From contig NZ_JACIBY010000006.1 in the NCBI RefSeq assembly GCF_014195535.1, positions 1-64,000 of the forward strand: 64,000 nucleotides of DNA, in the 5' to 3' direction. Origin of the DNA: Runella defluvii. GTDB lineage: Bacteria > Bacteroidota > Bacteroidia > Cytophagales > Spirosomataceae. Under the pieces are notes generated by a model. That model saw only the letters and a list, made by a program, of their open reading frames with translations. It did not search any database and had not been told where the DNA came from. The translations under genes and the position numbers were made by a program. Positions 1 to 28,652 of the stretch are shown here, piece after piece (position 1 is the first letter of the stretch; each line of letters begins with the position of its first letter).

Positions 1-92
<92 letters not shown>

Positions 93-19701: not shown

Positions 19702-21159
19702 ATGATTGACAAAAAAGCTAAAATTGTTGCTACCGTAGGTCCTGCTTCCGAAACGTCTGAAATGCTCCAAGCATTAGTACAAGCAGGAGTAAACGTATTT
19801 CGTCTCAATTTCTCTCACGGCACTCATGCCGACCACCAAGAACGTATCAACCGCATTCGTGAGAACAATGCAAAATACGGTTTTAGCGTCGGAATTTTAC
19901 AAGATTTGCAAGGCCCTAAAATTCGCATCGGTAACGTAGAACACAAAGACGGTGTGAAAATTACGGCAGGACAAAAATTAGTTTTTACCAACGAAGAAAT
20001 CATCGGTACCTCTGAGCGCGTGAGTACACCTTATAAAGGTATGTACCGCGACGTGCGCATGGGTGAGCGAATTTTGATGGACGACGGAAAACTCGAAGTA
20101 AAAGTAGTTGGTATTGACGGAACAGACGTGGTGACCGAAGTTATTTACGACGGGATTTTGAAATCGAAAAAAGGTGTAAACCTTCCTAATACCAAGGTTT
20201 CGATGCCATCGGTGACGGAAAAAGACTACGAGGACTTAGAATTTGGTCTTCAAAACGACGTAGAATGGATTGCACTTTCATTTGTGCGCTACGCTTCTGA
20301 TATTCAAGAAGTAAAAGACTATATCAAGTCGAAAGGTAAAAATTGCCGCGTAGTGGCTAAAATCGAAAAGCCAGAAGCGATTGATAATATCGACGAAATC
20401 ATCGCCATTACGGATGCTATCATGGTAGCTCGCGGCGACTTGGGGGTTGAGCTTCCTGCCGAAGAAGTACCTATGATTCAGAAGATGATTGTAGAGAAAT
20501 GTAACCGTGCCGCCAAGCCTGTCATCGTGGCTACGCAGATGTTGGAAAGTATGATTGATGCTCCACGCCCGACGCGTGCCGAAATCAACGACATTGCCAA
20601 CTCCGTACTCGATGGCGCCGATGCCGTGATGCTAAGTGCAGAAACTGCCTCTGGAAAATACCCAGTAGAGTCTGTTACAAGCATGGCCCAGACCATCAAG
20701 CGAGTGGAAGAAACTGAAGCAGCGAAAGATGCTAAAGAAACCAAAATTTATTTCAAGCACCACGCGGCAGTTAATGACCATAGCAGCCCTAATGTCCTCA
20801 ATGACAACGTCGTAATGAGTGCTTGCCGTTTGGCACGTGATACCCAAGCAAAAGCAATCATTGGCGTAACTCGTTCGGGTTATACTGCGTTCCGCTTGTC
20901 GCACCACCGCCCAGAGGCCAATTTGTACGTCTTTACTTCAAACCAACGATTGATTGACACACTTTCATTGTATTGGGGAGTAAAAGCTATTTATTATGAC
21001 CGTGAGGGTCTTTCAAGCGACGACCTCATCGAAGACATCAAAAAAGTATTGGTTGAAAAAGGTGAGCTTAAATCAGGTGATATTTTTGTCAATACCTTGA
21101 GTATGCCAGTAACGAAGCACCGCAAAACAAATGCAGTGAAGCTAAGTATTGTTGAATAA
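19702..21159 (+). CDS. pyk: Pyruvate kinase
   Basis: A 485-residue glycolytic enzyme that makes pyruvate and ATP from phosphoenolpyruvate and ADP. I chose the ATG at 19702 (MIDKKAKIVATVGPASET); an in-frame TTG at 19678 directly after the priA stop is less likely. The signature around the catalytic lysine, CRVVAKIEKPEAIDNIDEI, is present, as are MVARGDLGVELP, ATQMLESMI and DGADAVMLSAETASGKYP. The C-terminal allosteric domain is present. It lies close behind priA and ends at the hairpin terminator at 21191-21222. Confidence 0.95.
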   Translation: MIDKKAKIVATVGPASETSEMLQALVQAGVNVFRLNFSHGTHADHQERINRIRENNAKYGFSVGILQDLQGPKIRIGNVEHKDGVKITAGQKLVFTNEEIIGTSERVSTPYKGMYRDVRMGERILMDDGKLEVKVVGIDGTDVVTEVIYDGILKSKKGVNLPNTKVSMPSVTEKDYEDLEFGLQNDVEWIALSFVRYASDIQEVKDYIKSKGKNCRVVAKIEKPEAIDNIDEIIAITDAIMVARGDLGVELPAEEVPMIQKMIVEKCNRAAKPVIVATQMLESMIDAPRPTRAEINDIANSVLDGADAVMLSAETASGKYPVESVTSMAQTIKRVEETEAAKDAKETKIYFKHHAAVNDHSSPNVLNDNVVMSACRLARDTQAKAIIGVTRSGYTAFRLSHHRPEANLYVFTSNQRLIDTLSLYWGVKAIYYDREGLSSDDLIEDIKKVLVEKGELKSGDIFVNTLSMPVTKHRKTNAVKLSIVE

Positions 21160-21190
21160 TCAGAAAGACCTGATTAAGATAAAAAGTAAA

Positions 21191-21230
21191 AAGGGCAATG
21201 ACGCAGCAGCGTTGTTGCCCTTCTTTCTTT
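21191..21230. terminator. Bidirectional terminator between pyk and the SemiSWEET gene
   Basis: The stem AAGGGCAA (21191-21198) pairs with TTGCCCTT (21215-21222), with an inner ACGC/GCGT pairing. A T-rich tract follows on the plus strand and an A-rich tract precedes it, so it can serve both convergent genes. Confidence 0.8.
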
Positions 21231-21231
21231 T

Positions 21232-21495
21232 CTAGGTGTTTGAGGTTTTGCTGTATTTCCATTTAAAATACAGAATCACGAAGGAAAGCATCAAAGTAAC
21301 GGTATTGGCTGCGATGACGGGAAATGAATGCGTCATCAGTCCGTAGGCTAACCAAAGCGCTACCCCCACGGTAAAAAGTAAAAACATGGCCAAAGAAACG
21401 TCCTTTGCCGATTTTGTTCGATATATTTGCATCACTTGTGGAACGAAGGCAACCGTCGTCAAAATTCCTGCGATGTACCCTAATGTCTCTAACAT
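21232..21495 (-). CDS. SemiSWEET family sugar transporter
   Basis: An 87-residue integral membrane protein with three predicted helices and one MtN3/saliva (SWEET) triple-helix bundle. The PQ motif is in GILTTVAFVPQVMQIYRTKSAKDVS at about 10-34, followed by the hydrophobic segments LFTVGVALWLAYGLM and AANTVTLMLSFVILYF. SemiSWEETs work as homodimers that let sugars (glucose or sucrose in studied cases) across the inner membrane; the substrate here is unknown. The length is typical for the family. It is convergent with pyk. Confidence 0.88.
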   Translation of the reverse strand: MLETLGYIAGILTTVAFVPQVMQIYRTKSAKDVSLAMFLLFTVGVALWLAYGLMTHSFPVIAANTVTLMLSFVILYFKWKYSKTSNT

Positions 21496-21587
21496 GGCGT
21501 TGTGTATTTGAGTCCTTTTTACTATTTATCGGAAAAGTTATAGAAAAAGTTTCTTATCAACGCAAAGTTCTTTAAATAATACAACAA

Positions 21588-21650
21588 ATGATTATCAGAA
21601 CAAAAAATAGTGTCATTCTCGTCTCAATTATTACACCCTCCACAGTGTGA
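21588..21650 (+). CDS. ilv leader peptide 1 (attenuator ORF)
   Basis: A 20-codon ORF too short for standard gene calling: MIIRTKNSVILVSIITPSTV. Seven of its codons in the run GTC ATT CTC GTC TCA ATT ATT are Val, Ile or Leu apart from one Ser. It ends in GTG TGA, with the stop inside the segment GTGTGAG (21645-21651) that can pair with CTCACAC in the loop and stem of the downstream terminator. This is the arrangement of a branched-chain amino acid attenuator: stalling on Val/Ile/Leu codons leaves GTGTGAG free. It lies about 310 bp upstream of the ilvD start. It is inferred from sequence only. Confidence 0.7.
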   Translation: MIIRTKNSVILVSIITPSTV

Positions 21651-21675
21651 GCAAGGCGCGTATGTCCACCAAACA

Positions 21676-21711
21676 AAAAAGCCCCTTCTCACACCGATAA
21701 GGGGCTTTTTT
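21676..21711 (+). terminator. ilv attenuator terminator 1
   Basis: The stem AAAAAGCCCCTT (21676-21687) pairs with AAGGGGCTTTTT (21699-21710) around an 11-nt loop that begins CTCACACC. A T-run follows within the stem end. The loop segment CTCACAC (21688-21694) can instead pair with GTGTGAG at 21645-21651, with additional bases CCTT to AAGG, so terminator and antiterminator are mutually exclusive. Confidence 0.75.
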
Positions 21712-21769
21712 GTTGCCCATAAGCAAAAAAACCGTTTTTTGTTTGGAAAATAAAAACTGACCCTATTTA

Positions 21770-21803
21770 TTTGTAACGCAATTACGCAATTAGCGTAATT
21801 TCG
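21770..21803 (+). promoter_or_regulatory. Possible internal promoter with overlapping dyad operator
   Basis: TTTG (21770-21773) and TAATTTCG (21796-21803), 22 nt apart, form an imperfect Bacteroidota promoter (one mismatch in the -7 box and a spacer 1-2 nt too long). A perfect inverted repeat, AATTACGC (21780-21787), AATTA, GCGTAATT (21793-21800), fills the spacer and overlaps the -7 box. ACGCAATT also occurs twice in a row at 21776-21791. This looks like a repressor operator or a second ilv promoter between the two attenuators. Confidence 0.35.
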
Positions 21804-21827
21804 CTCATAGAAAAAATTTGCTTTAAA

Positions 21828-21884
21828 ATGTTCACTATAACAGGCGTGGTCGTGGTCCTCATTATTAGCACCCAAATGGTGTGA
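21828..21884 (+). CDS. ilv leader peptide 2 (attenuator ORF)
   Basis: An 18-codon ORF: MFTITGVVVVLIISTQMV. Its seven-codon run GTG GTC GTG GTC CTC ATT ATT is entirely Val, Leu and Ile. It ends in GTG TGA, with the stop inside GGTGTGAGTG (21878-21887), which pairs perfectly with CACTCACACC (21912-21921) in the terminator. The regulatory codons sit 12 codons before the stop, exactly as in leader peptide 1. Stalling at these codons would expose the antiterminator segment; completion would let the ribosome cover it. It lies 78 bp upstream of ilvD. Confidence 0.85.
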   Translation: MFTITGVVVVLIISTQMV

Positions 21885-21905
21885 GTGAAACCCGATTGCC
21901 CTCAG

Positions 21906-21943
21906 AAGCCTCACTCACACCAACAACGAGTGAGGCTTTTTTG
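21906..21943 (+). terminator. ilv attenuator terminator 2
   Basis: The stem AAGCCTCACTC (21906-21916) pairs with GAGTGAGGCTT (21928-21938), followed by TTTT. The upstream stem arm overlaps CACTCACACC, which forms a perfect 10-bp alternative pairing with GGTGTGAGTG at 21878-21887. A short CACC/GGTG pairing (about 21869-21881) can act as the pause hairpin. It lies 18 bp upstream of the ilvD start codon. Confidence 0.88.
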
Positions 21944-21961
21944 TAAAAAAACCTTTCTATC

Positions 21962-23647
21962 ATGTCAGAGCAACTAAACAAATTCAGCCGCACACTTACC
22001 CAAGAAGTGACCAACCCCGCCGCTAAAGCCATGCTTTACGGAGTAGGTCTAACCCAAGAAGATATGCAAAAAGCCCAAATCGGGATTGCAAGTACGGGTT
22101 ATGAAGGAAATACTTGTAACATGCACCTTAACGGACTGTCGGTGCACGTTAAAAAAGGAATTCAAGAAAACGGCATGGTGGGACTTATCTTCCATACCAT
22201 AGGGGTATCTGACGGAATGACCAACGGAAACGCTGGAATGAGCTACTCACTCCCCTCGCGTGACTTGATTGCTGACTCTATCGAAAACGTAGTAGGTGCA
22301 CAATGGTACGACGGCGTGATCGCGGTCGTAGGTTGTGACAAAAATATGCCAGGCGCCATGATGGCCTTGGCTCGCCTCAACCGCCCAGGAATGCTCGTGT
22401 ACGGAGGAACCATCCGTACGGGTGAATACAAAGGCCAAAAGCTTGACATCATCTCGGCGTTTGAAGCCCTTGGAAAGAAATTTGCGGGAACTATCTCGGA
22501 CGAAGATTACGAAGGTGTGATTCAAAACGCCATCCCAGGCGCGGGAGCTTGCGGCGGGATGTACACAGCCAATACCATGGCAAGCTCGATGGAAGCCATG
22601 GGACTTACCCTTCCCAACTCTTCTACTTACCCTGCTACGCACGAAGGTAAAAAAGCAGAGTGTATTGCCATCGGCGCAGCCATGAAGCAATTGCTCGAAA
22701 AAAATATCTGTCCACGCGACATCATGACGCGTAAAGCGTTTGAAAATGCCCTTACGGTAGTAATGGCGCTTGGTGGCTCCACCAACGCCGTATTGCACTA
22801 TTTGGCCATTGCCCGCGCGGCCGAAGTGGAATTTACGTTGAAAGACATTCAAGATATTTCGGATCGTACGCCATTGATTGCTGACCTCAAGCCATCAGGT
22901 AAGTATTATATGGAAGATGTATTGGCGATTGGTGGTGTACCTGCCATCATGAAATACCTCCTTCAAAAAGGGCTTCTTCACGGCGATTGCTTGACCGTAA
23001 CGGGCAAAACCATTGCCGAAAACCTAGCAGATGTCCCTGAGTTAAGCTTTGATAGCCAGAAGATTATCTTCCCTATCGAAACACCGCTCAAACCAACGGG
23101 GCACTTGCAAATTTTGTACGGCAACCTGGCAACGGGCGGTGCAGTAGCAAAAATTACGGGCAAAGAAGGTGAGCGTTTTGAGGGAATTGCCAAAGTATGT
23201 GAGCGCGAAGAAGAAGTGATTGAATTCATTTCTAAAGGCGAAGTGAAGGCAGGCCACGTGCTTGTGATTCGCAACGAAGGCCCGAAAGGCGGCCCAGGAA
23301 TGCCCGAAATGCTTAAACCTACTTCGGCAGTAATGGGCGCTGGACTTGGTGATAAAATCGCGATGATTACCGACGGCCGCTTCTCAGGAGGAACGCACGG
23401 TTTCGTGGTAGGTCACGTCACCCCTGAAGCATACCTTGGCGGAAACATCGCTTTGGTACAAGACGGTGATAAAATTACGATTGATGCCGTCAACAACGTA
23501 CTCCAATTGCACGTATCAGACGAAGAATTGGCTGAGCGCCGTAAGCTTTGGAAACAACCAGAGCCTCCGTTTACGAGAGGCACATTAGGCAAGTACATCC
23601 GCAACGTAAAATCAGCCAGCGAGGGTTGCGTAACGGATGAAGCGTAA
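21962..23647 (+). CDS. ilvD: Dihydroxy-acid dehydratase
   Basis: A 561-residue Fe-S enzyme that dehydrates 2,3-dihydroxyisovalerate and 2,3-dihydroxy-3-methylvalerate in valine, leucine and isoleucine synthesis. The three likely cluster ligands are C52 (YEGNTCNMH), C125 ([12 protein letters not shown]) and C197 ([14 protein letters not shown]). The C-terminal [22 protein letters not shown] signature is complete. The family's usual length is about 560-610. It is the first structural gene behind two attenuators. A hairpin of 9 bp (23657-23693) lies between it and the following vapBC pair. Confidence 0.95.
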
Positions 23648-23774: not shown

Positions 23775-24020
23775 ATGAACGCACACAGAGAAATAGTAAA
23801 GCCTATAGGGCGAACCATAAGTTTAGAGTTACCAGAAGAGTTTGTTCTTGGTGACCAAGTTGAGGTAATTATTCTCCCTCTCAACGAGCCGTTCGTTAAA
23901 AAAACGAAAAATGACTTGAGGCGTTTTCGTGGGGCACTTGCTCATTTGCCAGAAAAAGAGAAAAAAGAAATGGACGAATTTTTTAAAAATATTCGTAACG
24001 AATGGGAGCGAGATATCTAA
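23775..24020 (+). CDS. VapB-type antitoxin
   Basis: An 81-residue protein upstream of and overlapping a PIN-domain toxin gene by 19 bp. The N-terminal part, EIVKPIGRTISLELPEEFVLGDQVEVIILP, has the beta-strand pattern of an AbrB/SpoVT-like DNA-binding domain as in many VapB antitoxins. The C-terminal half is helical and highly charged (EKEKKEMDEFFKNIRNEWERD), as expected for the toxin-neutralising tail. Antitoxin identity is inferred mostly from its position. The pair is inserted between ilvD and ilvB on the same strand. Confidence 0.75.
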   Translation: MNAHREIVKPIGRTISLELPEEFVLGDQVEVIILPLNEPFVKKTKNDLRRFRGALAHLPEKEKKEMDEFFKNIRNEWERDI

Positions 24021-24385
24021 TTGATACATCTGGTTACAGCCGTTATTTAGATGATCGGTTATCCGTAGAAAGCAGCGAATTCATGGATAGTGTATTGGAA
24101 GATGCGCCTGCTATGTGTTTTGTAGTCAAAATAGAATTGCGTTCTTTTCAAGGTGATGTAGATAGGGAGCATACAATTGCTGATTTGGTTAATAGTTCTA
24201 GGATAATTGAACTCACCGATGATGTCATTGAAAAAACCATTGAGCTACGCAAAAAAGCCAAAATTAAACTCCCAGACGCTATCATTGCCGCCACAGCGAT
24301 TATCCATAACTTAACTTTACTATCTACCAATGATAGTGATTTTTTGAAAGTGCCTAAATTGAAATACAAGTCATTGAACACATAA
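24002..24385 (+). CDS. vapC: PIN-domain toxin, VapC family
   Basis: A 127-residue PIN-domain ribonuclease. The acidic catalytic residues are present: D8 (YLIDTSGYS), E45 (VVKIELRSF), D92 (IKLPDAIIAATAI) and D111 (LSTNDSDF). The family usually cleaves tRNA or rRNA when its antitoxin is degraded. It overlaps its partner gene and lies 13 bp upstream of ilvB, so the toxin would be co-transcribed with the ilv genes unless an internal promoter or the hairpin after ilvD isolates it. Nothing suggests inactivation. Confidence 0.85.
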   Translation: MGARYLIDTSGYSRYLDDRLSVESSEFMDSVLEDAPAMCFVVKIELRSFQGDVDREHTIADLVNSSRIIELTDDVIEKTIELRKKAKIKLPDAIIAATAIIHNLTLLSTNDSDFLKVPKLKYKSLNT

Positions 24386-26717: not shown

Positions 26718-26752
26718 AAGTGCGTTATTTGCAGTTCATTTCACCTCAATAC

Positions 26753-27892
26753 ATGGAACAACTGCAATCTCTCACTACTCCTTTTAAGGGATTAGAAGCC
26801 CGACTTAAAACGTTCTTTGACAGTAGATTCTGGCAATTCAAGGTATTATTTTTATCCTTGGCTATTTCAGTGAGTACTTTGTTGGTATTCAATTTTATCT
26901 TTGTTGACCGTGGCTTTCGCGATTTATACCAAGAAATGCGTCACCCTGGGTCGATAGGTGGTTTTTTTTGGGACGACATCGTCAAGCAAGGTGCTGACCC
27001 ATTTACACCCAAAGATTACGAAGCAGGTTCACACGAAGCCAATCAAACATTTCGACTTACCGTACCACTCATTGCGTATGCCTTGCACCTCAATGTCGCA
27101 GGTTTATACTTGCTTCATGTCATTGTAGGATTGGGGTTTTTGTGGTTAGTTATTCAAATCACCTACCAAATTCTCCAAAATCGGTTATTGGTGTTTTATT
27201 TCCTGACAGGCTTTACGGCCATTTATGCAGGTGCTAATTTTTACATCAATTACCTTGGTCATGCCGATGTGTTTCCGTTTTGCTTCTTAGCGCTTGCGTT
27301 TTATTTACGGAATCCATTATGGGTACTGTTGTTTACCCAATTGGCCTTTTGGTGCGACGAACGAGCCATCATCAACTCCTCCTACCTGGGGTTGTGGTTT
27401 GTGCTACCCATGCTAAAAGAAGTGATTGAAACCAAACAGTTTCGCCTAAAACAAATTCCTCTTGAGGCAGTAGCGTTGGTGGTAAGTGCAGGTTTGTATT
27501 TGGTTGTTAGGCAGTGGCTATCGAGCACCTATGGCTTAAAAGTAGGCCACGACAATGCGCTTTCTCACCGTACTACTTGGTGGAGTTTGAGTATTTTAGG
27601 AGATAAGTTTACGCGAGGCTTTGAAGGATTTTGGCTAATTATTTTTGCAGGCATGGCCGTTTTGGTTATGCTCAAAGATTGGCTCACGTTTGGGTTGTTG
27701 CTAGGGTGCTTTATGGCTACCGCAGCCATTAGTATCATGGTTGCCGATGGCACACGGTCGCTTTCGTTTGGTTACATGATTTTCTTTTTCATGCTTTCCA
27801 CCTTACGAAAGCACATTCCTGTCTCCCAGCTCACCTATTTGTTGATAGTAAGTAGCCTCATTTCACTTATGCTTCCTATCTCTTTTCCTTAA
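26753..27892 (+). CDS. Polytopic membrane protein of unknown function
   Basis: About 379 residues from the ATG at 26753; an earlier in-frame start at 26699 would overlap ilvN. Roughly nine or ten hydrophobic helices are visible (for example FLSLAISVSTLLVFNFIF, VAGLYLLHVIVGLGFLWLVI, LLVFYFLTGFTAIYAG, YMIFFFMLSTL). A short soluble segment (FRDLYQEMRHPGSIGG) follows the first helix. The layout recalls GT-C-type or EpsG-like membrane proteins, but no diagnostic motif was identified. It sits between ilvN and ilvC with a methyltransferase, without a known link to amino acid synthesis. Confidence 0.7.
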   Translation: MEQLQSLTTPFKGLEARLKTFFDSRFWQFKVLFLSLAISVSTLLVFNFIFVDRGFRDLYQEMRHPGSIGGFFWDDIVKQGADPFTPKDYEAGSHEANQTFRLTVPLIAYALHLNVAGLYLLHVIVGLGFLWLVIQITYQILQNRLLVFYFLTGFTAIYAGANFYINYLGHADVFPFCFLALAFYLRNPLWVLLFTQLAFWCDERAIINSSYLGLWFVLPMLKEVIETKQFRLKQIPLEAVALVVSAGLYLVVRQWLSSTYGLKVGHDNALSHRTTWWSLSILGDKFTRGFEGFWLIIFAGMAVLVMLKDWLTFGLLLGCFMATAAISIMVADGTRSLSFGYMIFFFMLSTLRKHIPVSQLTYLLIVSSLISLMLPISFP

Positions 27893-27899
27893 ATGTCGT

Positions 27900-28652
27900 A
27901 TGAATCAGGCATACTACAAAGAATATTATCACATTGAACGCAAGCACTGGTGGTTTTTGGTTCGCAACCAAATCATTATGAACCACCTGCGTGGTCAACT
28001 TAGCAATAACCGACCTCTCAAAGTGCTTAACATTGGAGTTGCCACAGGACGTACCTCAGAACTACTTACCGAGTTTGGCTCGGTCAAGTCAGTAGAATAC
28101 GACCACGCGTGTTTTGAGTTTACCAAAGCCACAGTACCATCGCTCGATATCATCCAAGGTTCGATTCTTGAACTTCCTTTTGAAGATCAATCGTACGACC
28201 TAGTATGTGCGCTCGATGTCATTGAACACGTCGAAGAGCATCAGTTAGCAGTACAAGAAATGCAGCGAGTTTGTAAACCAAACGGTTTTGTCTGTGTCAC
28301 TGTTCCTGCGTTTAATTTTTTATGGAACCAGCACGACGACGTAAATCACCACGTTCGGCGATATACTCGGCCGCTGTTAGAGCGTCTGTTTCAATCCACA
28401 GGCAAAATCACTTTCAGTAGCTATTTTAATTTTTGGTTGTTTTTTCCCATTGCGGGATTTAGGTTGTTGTCGCGGTTATTGCCGCTTCACCATCGCAAAA
28501 TCGAAGAAGCAGGTTCTGACTTTACGGTCATGAACGGTTCGCTTTTTCAAAAAGTATTTTACGGTATTTTCAACAGTGAAAATATCTTTATTAAGAATGG
28601 CATTCAACTACCTGCAGGGGTGTCGTTGTTGCTTAGTTGGCAAAAGAAATAA
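27900..28652 (+). CDS. Class I SAM-dependent methyltransferase
   Basis: A 250-residue protein with the Rossmann-type glycine motif VLNIGVATGRTSELL, the acidic ribose-binding residue in VEYDHA, and post-I motifs DLVCALDVIEHVEEH and CKPNGFVCVTVPAFNFLWN. The N-terminal YYHIERKHWWFLVRNQII and the VNHHVRRYT segment resemble methyltransferases near polyprenol-linked glycan genes in other bacteria, but the substrate is not clear. It follows the membrane protein by 7 bp, and the two may act together. Confidence 0.8.
   Translation: MNQAYYKEYYHIERKHWWFLVRNQIIMNHLRGQLSNNRPLKVLNIGVATGRTSELLTEFGSVKSVEYDHACFEFTKATVPSLDIIQGSILELPFEDQSYDLVCALDVIEHVEEHQLAVQEMQRVCKPNGFVCVTVPAFNFLWNQHDDVNHHVRRYTRPLLERLFQSTGKITFSSYFNFWLFFPIAGFRLLSRLLPLHHRKIEEAGSDFTVMNGSLFQKVFYGIFNSENIFIKNGIQLPAGVSLLLSWQKK

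Follow-up and report, generated by a model that had tools for sequence, protein, structure and literature searches.

Two candidate branched-chain amino-acid attenuators upstream of ilvD in Runella defluvii, and paired leader cassettes elsewhere in Bacteroidota

Two short leader cassettes lie upstream of ilvD in Runella defluvii, and both look like leader-peptide attenuators for the branched-chain amino acids (BCAA: valine, isoleucine and leucine), well built as judged from their sequence. They were analysed in a 64-kb window, by which we mean the whole stretch of 64,000 nucleotides. The explanation that we favour, and consider probable, is that both are ribosome-mediated BCAA attenuators: leader 2 with its terminator T2 would be the main switch behind a promoter motif, P2, and leader 1 with T1 an extra, clade-specific gate. 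The anatomy and geometry of the cassettes, their conservation and the position of the P2 motif were computed.

Anatomy and modelled switching of the two cassettes

The elements of the two cassettes and the gene that they would control are as follows.

21588–21650, + strand: leader 1 ORF, 20 codons, MIIRTKNSVILVSIITPSTV followed by the stop; BCAA run at codons 9–15, with one Ser
21645–21656, + strand: segment 2 of attenuator 1, GTGTGAG plus extension, with the stop codon within it
21672–21714, + strand: terminator T1, by folding, -23.9 kcal/mol
21828–21884, + strand: leader 2 ORF, 18 codons, MFTITGVVVVLIISTQMV followed by the stop; BCAA run at codons 7–13
21876–21887, + strand: segment 2 of attenuator 2, TGGTGTGAGTGA, with the stop codon within it
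21904–21940, + strand: terminator T2, by folding, -19.3 kcal/mol
21962–23647, + strand: ilvD (dihydroxy-acid dehydratase), the controlled gene

BCAA codons fill six of seven positions in the run of leader 1 and seven of seven in that of leader 2, and folding places an intrinsic terminator between each leader and the structural gene. The initial annotation had described two leader ORFs of 20 and 18 codons, each with a BCAA run that begins 12 codons ahead of its stop, a GTGTGAG/CTCACAC pair in each cassette and a terminator after each leader. All of these features are found, with the coordinates right to within a few bases and the terminator folds at T1 and T2 as listed. The 10-bp match that it had reported for copy 2 is present as well; its real length is 12 bp (TGGTGTGAGTGA). 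In copy 1, if bulges are allowed, upstream pairing takes in 16 bases of the terminator arm. When the folds of six stretches were compared with 200 shuffles, four of the six beat all shuffles and the other two beat all but one. Rfam, at its gathering score, gave no match around the ilvD leaders in the window, nor anywhere in loci L001, L026, L052, L056, L068 and L073.

A strict scan was run over both strands of the window. It required an ATG-initiated ORF with at least six BCAA codons in seven, a terminator folding at -10 kcal/mol or lower, and seven or more Watson-Crick pairs between the stop region and the terminator. With detector thresholds that were picked while viewing this same window, exactly two sites pass, and these are the two cassettes ahead of the BCAA operon.

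We then modelled the stalled ribosome by setting it at each codon in turn, hiding 12 nt past the A site (an assumed footprint) and folding the RNA that has emerged before segment 4 exists; the fold is not kinetic. In both leaders, the modelled antiterminator breaks down once the ribosome is just beyond the final BCAA codon. For leader 1, the antiterminator stays complete (-17 kcal/mol, 16 arm bases) through A-site codon 15, the last BCAA codon, and the energies past the run are -9.7 at codon 16, -4.6 at codon 17, -4.0 at codon 18 and 0 at codon 19. For leader 2, it stays complete (-18.7) through codon 12; at the last BCAA codon, 13, the energy is -13.8, followed by -6.5 at codon 14, -2.1 at codon 15 and 0 at codon 16. 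A stall anywhere before the run also leads to antitermination in the model, which picks out no single amino acid. As modelled, the competing antiterminator is blocked by a ribosome at the stop codon and freed by a stalled one. Codon position, antiterminator and terminator geometry all fit the textbook attenuation logic that the initial annotation had read in this region, as far as sequence and the stall model go.

The same spacing recurs in other cassettes. A survey of 100 cassettes with at least six BCAA codons in seven left 91 usable ones, and in 68 of these 91 the collapse comes one to three codons after the final BCAA codon, against 20.4 expected under a null of simple random placement of the run. 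The pairing is also specific to the cassette: segment 2 reaches at least seven Watson-Crick pairs with its own terminator arm in 46.7% of 182 distinct cassettes, and in only 9.9% when the arms are swapped among cassettes.

Could the two cassettes be a coincidence of unrelated short ORFs lying near hairpins? A simple consensus terminator scan of positions 20500–23000 missed both T1 and T2; it returned two sites, both near 21200, against 3.3 expected from shuffles. In addition, a looser detector, applied to 270 upstream regions with the reverse complement and one shuffle of each region as controls, finds one or more cassettes in 125 regions, compared with 16 of the 270 reverse complements and 10 of the 270 shuffles. 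These results would speak for chance. Against it stand the two strict matches, both ahead of the BCAA operon, and the excess of own-arm over swapped-arm pairing, and for leader 2 chance is ruled out by its conservation in every Runella locus compared (12 of 12). We give coincidence almost no weight.

Under the favoured explanation, the cassettes would work as follows. When valine, isoleucine and leucine are plentiful, the ribosome would reach the leader stop codon and cover segment 2, the terminator hairpin would form and transcription would end. When BCAA-tRNA is scarce, the ribosome would stall in the BCAA run and leave segment 2 free; segment 2 and the rising terminator arm could then pair, and RNA polymerase would read through. 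For this scheme we infer promoter activity, leader translation, termination and a response to the amino acids.

Several neighbouring genes of the window were also noted. A SemiSWEET/PQ-loop-like transporter gene (PF04193, PF03083) lies at 21232–21495 on the minus strand, divergent from ilvD, and the order of a pyruvate-kinase-like gene (identified by eye), the SemiSWEET gene and ilvD is kept in L001, L086 and L091. Between ilvD and the acetolactate synthase genes, at 23775–24385, a small ORF overlaps a PIN-domain gene (Pfam PF01850), and by sequence the two resemble a toxin-antitoxin pair within the ilv cluster. A protein with no Pfam match and a methyltransferase are encoded at 26744–28649, between the acetolactate synthase small subunit gene and ilvC. 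The window starts within a bacterial 16S rRNA gene (1–91, minus strand).

Promoter motif, conservation and origin in Runella

Two further elements lie between the cassettes.

21742–21773, + strand: promoter motif P2, TTTG-N20-TTTATTTG, by motif and conservation; putative start near 21778
21780–21805, no strand assigned: palindromic operator-like site, AATTACGC-AATTA-GCGTAATT, overlapping TTAGCGTAATTTCGCT

The promoter consensus of Bacteroidota is TTTG-N17-23-TAnnTTTG, and P2 is one mismatch away from it. P2 sits between T1 and leader 2, with the palindrome next downstream. The 68-base block of P2 and palindrome shows 2–7 differences from the window in seven aligned Runella without leader 1. 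P2-like motifs also stand ahead of the single leader in sister-genus loci L103, L138, L148, L098 and L094, and L169 has none by the same pattern. At up to two mismatches, 96 P2-like motifs occur on the + strand of the window; since such motifs are common, the case for P2 rests on conservation and position. A search for E. coli-type promoters ahead of ilvD gave nothing useful.

The palindrome was considered as a part of the attenuator RNA and rejected in this role, as L005 and L010 keep a similar palindrome and have no attenuator called. Its segment TTAGCGNAATTTCGCT (21790–21805) occurs exactly twice in the genome. The other copy (L281, at G000:C6:174921-174936) precedes a gene that looks by eye like malate synthase, hinting at a regulator that BCAA and glyoxylate metabolism might share. 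Long palindromes reaching up to 50 nt, with T tracts behind them, are found about 450–600 nt upstream of ilvD in sister-genus loci L098, L106, L107 and L108; TTAGCGAAATTTCGCTAA or a close variant forms their core.

Because P2 is placed after T1 and ahead of leader 2, and is also present where leader 1 is absent, P2 transcripts would meet leader 2 only, and "two in series" would hold only for transcription from further upstream. The initial annotation had placed the two attenuators in series: the tandem arrangement stands, but with a conserved P2 in between, P2 transcripts would bypass leader 1. The Runella pair is less tidy than first described, and cleaner serial examples are found elsewhere in the phylum. 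In the favoured explanation, leader 2 and T2, downstream of P2, would be the main switch. Leader 1 and T1, upstream of P2 and present in this Runella clade only, would form an additional switch, gating only transcription begun further upstream, whether from a weak or unknown P1 or by readthrough. This minor fraction of transcripts would pass two gates in series.

Alternatively, one promoter upstream of leader 1 could make all ilvD mRNA, and the effects of both gates would multiply. Both cassettes are complete and have the same orientation, and elsewhere leader 2 begins 7–27 nt past T1 with no room for a promoter, as this reading would have it. Its best candidate promoters are a perfect -7 motif, TATATTTG, at 21422 and a one-mismatch motif, TGTATTTG, at 21503; both have poor -33 boxes, and the former lies within the opposite-strand gene. 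From 21100 on, however, no TTG-N17-23-TAnnTTTG with up to two mismatches occurs before leader 1, and the promoter motif between T1 and leader 2 is conserved even in Runella without leader 1. We consider such fully serial control unlikely in Runella.

A search of the genus gave matches in 12 of 13 genomes. Comparison with relatives, which the initial annotation had proposed as a check, gave a divided answer: leader 2 and T2 are called in all 12 loci, but leader 1 and T1 in only four of the 12 (L001, L083, L084 and L085), and these four form one clade in the ilvD tree with support 1.000. IlvD of the genus-mate G007 is 97% identical. A DNA search for cassette 1 in 222 family genomes, with up to three candidates scored per genome, returned the same four Runella only at an E value of 1e-6 or better. 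There is no second genomic copy of cassette 1, the best other hits being its own reverse-strand hairpin and short matches. In L085, leader 1 stops two codons later and the antiterminator has one mismatch. In Runella without leader 1 (L090, L091 and L092), a palindrome-like TTGTTGGTATAATACAACAA occupies the position at which leader 1 starts in the window clade.

Between L001 and L085, leader 1 and T1 differ at 12 of 106 sites, compared with 21 of 64 in three spacers (p 0.0011; Fisher test on hand-chosen spacers and a single species pair), and leader 2 and T2 differ at 11 of 96 (p 0.0012). For leader 1 and T1, the contrast weakens to p 0.0185 with five spacers (25/104) and to p 0.055 when the spacers also take in the sequence upstream of leader 1 (40/197). 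Leader 1 and T1 change no slower than ilvD (12/106 versus 203/1683). Leader 1 looks maintained, on modest sequence evidence from one species pair. Because this test depends on the choice of spacers, our confidence in the favoured explanation is slightly lowered.

Another possible role for T1 is that of an insulator: as a terminator it would separate the ilv promoter from the divergent SemiSWEET gene, and the leader-like ORF would be little transcribed. Consistent with this, no good promoter precedes leader 1, the reverse strand of T1 likewise ends in a T tract, and leader 1 is confined to a third of the Runella loci. However, an insulator has no need of a BCAA run, a stop position and an antiterminator that obey the attenuator rule, nor of a cassette akin to the lone attenuator before ilvD in sister genera. 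We find this role improbable.

The likeness of the two cassettes had led the initial annotation to suggest duplication of one cassette. Cassettes 1 and 2 are indeed related (alignment score 40, z 7.3, with 0 of 500 shuffles scoring as high) and have a common register and core, as a recent tandem duplication of a single cassette would predict. However, each is nearer to a different cassette type in another genus than to its neighbour: cassette 1 scores 63 with L094 of a sister genus (z 15.9) and 59 with L098 (z 13.1), and cassette 2 scores 62 with L166 (z 15.0). These scores speak against the duplication claim, and we judge such an origin very unlikely. A decayed leader 1 was sought in the seven other aligned Runella and rejected, with whole-cassette z values of -1.0 to 0.6; T1 alone reaches z values up to 2.4 in these seven, which is unconvincing. 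By alignment, the simplest history would be that the common ancestor of these four Runella acquired a cassette of foreign type; an old pair followed by several losses could be an alternative.

Paired cassettes across Bacteroidota and Ignavibacteria

The 270 upstream regions comprise a named set (the best 80 of 586), a family set (90 of 146 places), a phylum set (60 of 73 non-own places), and a Lutibacter set (30 of 33 places) taken together with 10 matching places of the Ignavibacteria order. Two Lutibacter-set loci, L188 and L204, have little upstream sequence. The regions amount to 262 distinct ones, with eight locus pairs identical across sets (L003/L085, L005/L135, L006/L156, L021/L155, L056/L180, L061/L181, L068/L210 and L076/L207). 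At least one cassette is found in 35/80 named loci (the best 80 of 586), 41/90 family loci, 26/40 Lutibacter and Ignavibacteria-order loci and 23/60 phylum loci. Most of the Bacteroidota regions examined have one cassette or none.

Pairs within 350 nt occur in six of the 80 named loci (again the best 80 of 586), which are L003 from Runella, L047 and L052 from Chryseobacterium, L056 from Lutibacter, L066 from a Cyclobacteriaceae MAG and L073 from Tenacibaculum. They are also found in four of the 90 family loci, all of the Runella clade, in eight of the 40 Lutibacter and Ignavibacteria-order loci (seven Lutibacter and L211), and in one locus (L251) of the 60 in the phylum sample. With the named set limited to its best 80 of 586, this gives 19 tandem loci, 17 of them distinct; no pair is seen in the reverse complements or shuffles of the 270 regions. 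By a looser call, two leader-terminator units are present in 10 of the 30 Lutibacter loci and also in L210 and L211; L068/L210, L183, L189 and L193 are paired under the looser detection and lost under the stricter one. The distribution in the Ignavibacteria order is patchy, with a pair only in L210 and L211 of its 10 matching places.

T1 and leader 2 are 7–27 nt apart outside Runella (an upstream call in L047, at 205 nt, was judged spurious and excluded), versus 113–117 nt in Runella. With so short a gap outside Runella, no promoter fits in between. In L073, L052, L047, L066 and L211, the pair precedes an ilvE-like branched-chain aminotransferase gene (identified by eye), which is followed by ilvD.

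We lean, by a little, towards the view that in Bacteroidota and Ignavibacteriota same-amino-acid serial BCAA gates form a recurrent design under selection, whose response would be multiplicative and steeper than that of one gate, and that Runella carries a variant of it. If so, the design stands before ilvD or before ilvE-ilvD. In the Runella variant, a promoter would lie between the gates; the main transcript would pass the second gate only and the minor upstream one both.

Relation to known attenuation systems

The ilvGMEDA operon has a classical leader-peptide attenuator of an amino-acid operon. Leader-peptide attenuation is classical; its serial, same-amino-acid, recurrent form appears to be new. 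As of 2010, leader-peptide attenuation was known only from Proteobacteria and Actinobacteria, to which Firmicutes were added (PMC2965389). The mechanism is a textbook one, and for Bacteroidota the literature searched contains brief mentions only. Strong clues of leader-peptide attenuation upstream of amino-acid operons are described for Flavobacterium psychrophilum in the available passages of PMC9723704, which share with our case the phylum and the setting of an amino-acid biosynthesis operon; these passages identify neither the operons nor their anatomy, and mention no tandem arrangement. For B. thetaiotaomicron, PMC7366714 mentions short ORFs that recall leader peptides. No serial BCAA attenuators in Bacteroidota were found in the open-access papers searched, which leave aside the comparative surveys cited in PMC4833913, and the evidence for novelty is weak.

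If BCAA attenuators obeying one simple spacing rule extend across the phylum, and serial pairs sensing the same amino acids recur there, transcription-translation coupling in Bacteroidota could be put to a direct test, because each gate can be disabled singly. This also raises the question of why two like gates in series should be favoured.

Three known systems, as described in PMC3641672, offer the closest comparisons. The E. coli trp leader likewise has a short ORF with codons for the pathway product, a competing antiterminator and an intrinsic terminator; the Runella operon differs from it in having two complete cassettes, a stop codon inside segment 2 and a Bacteroidota-type promoter motif (PMC3641672). 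Tandem riboswitches of B. clausii metE also place two serial sensors before one gene, with presumed intrinsic terminators, but there the RNA binds the signals directly and no translating ribosome takes part, unlike in the mechanism proposed for the Runella leaders (PMC3641672). The Salmonella mgtCBR leader also contains two short ORFs, each controlling elongation. Its attenuators sense ATP and proline and are unlike intrinsic terminators, whereas both Runella cassettes carry codons for the same three amino acids together with intrinsic terminators (PMC3641672).
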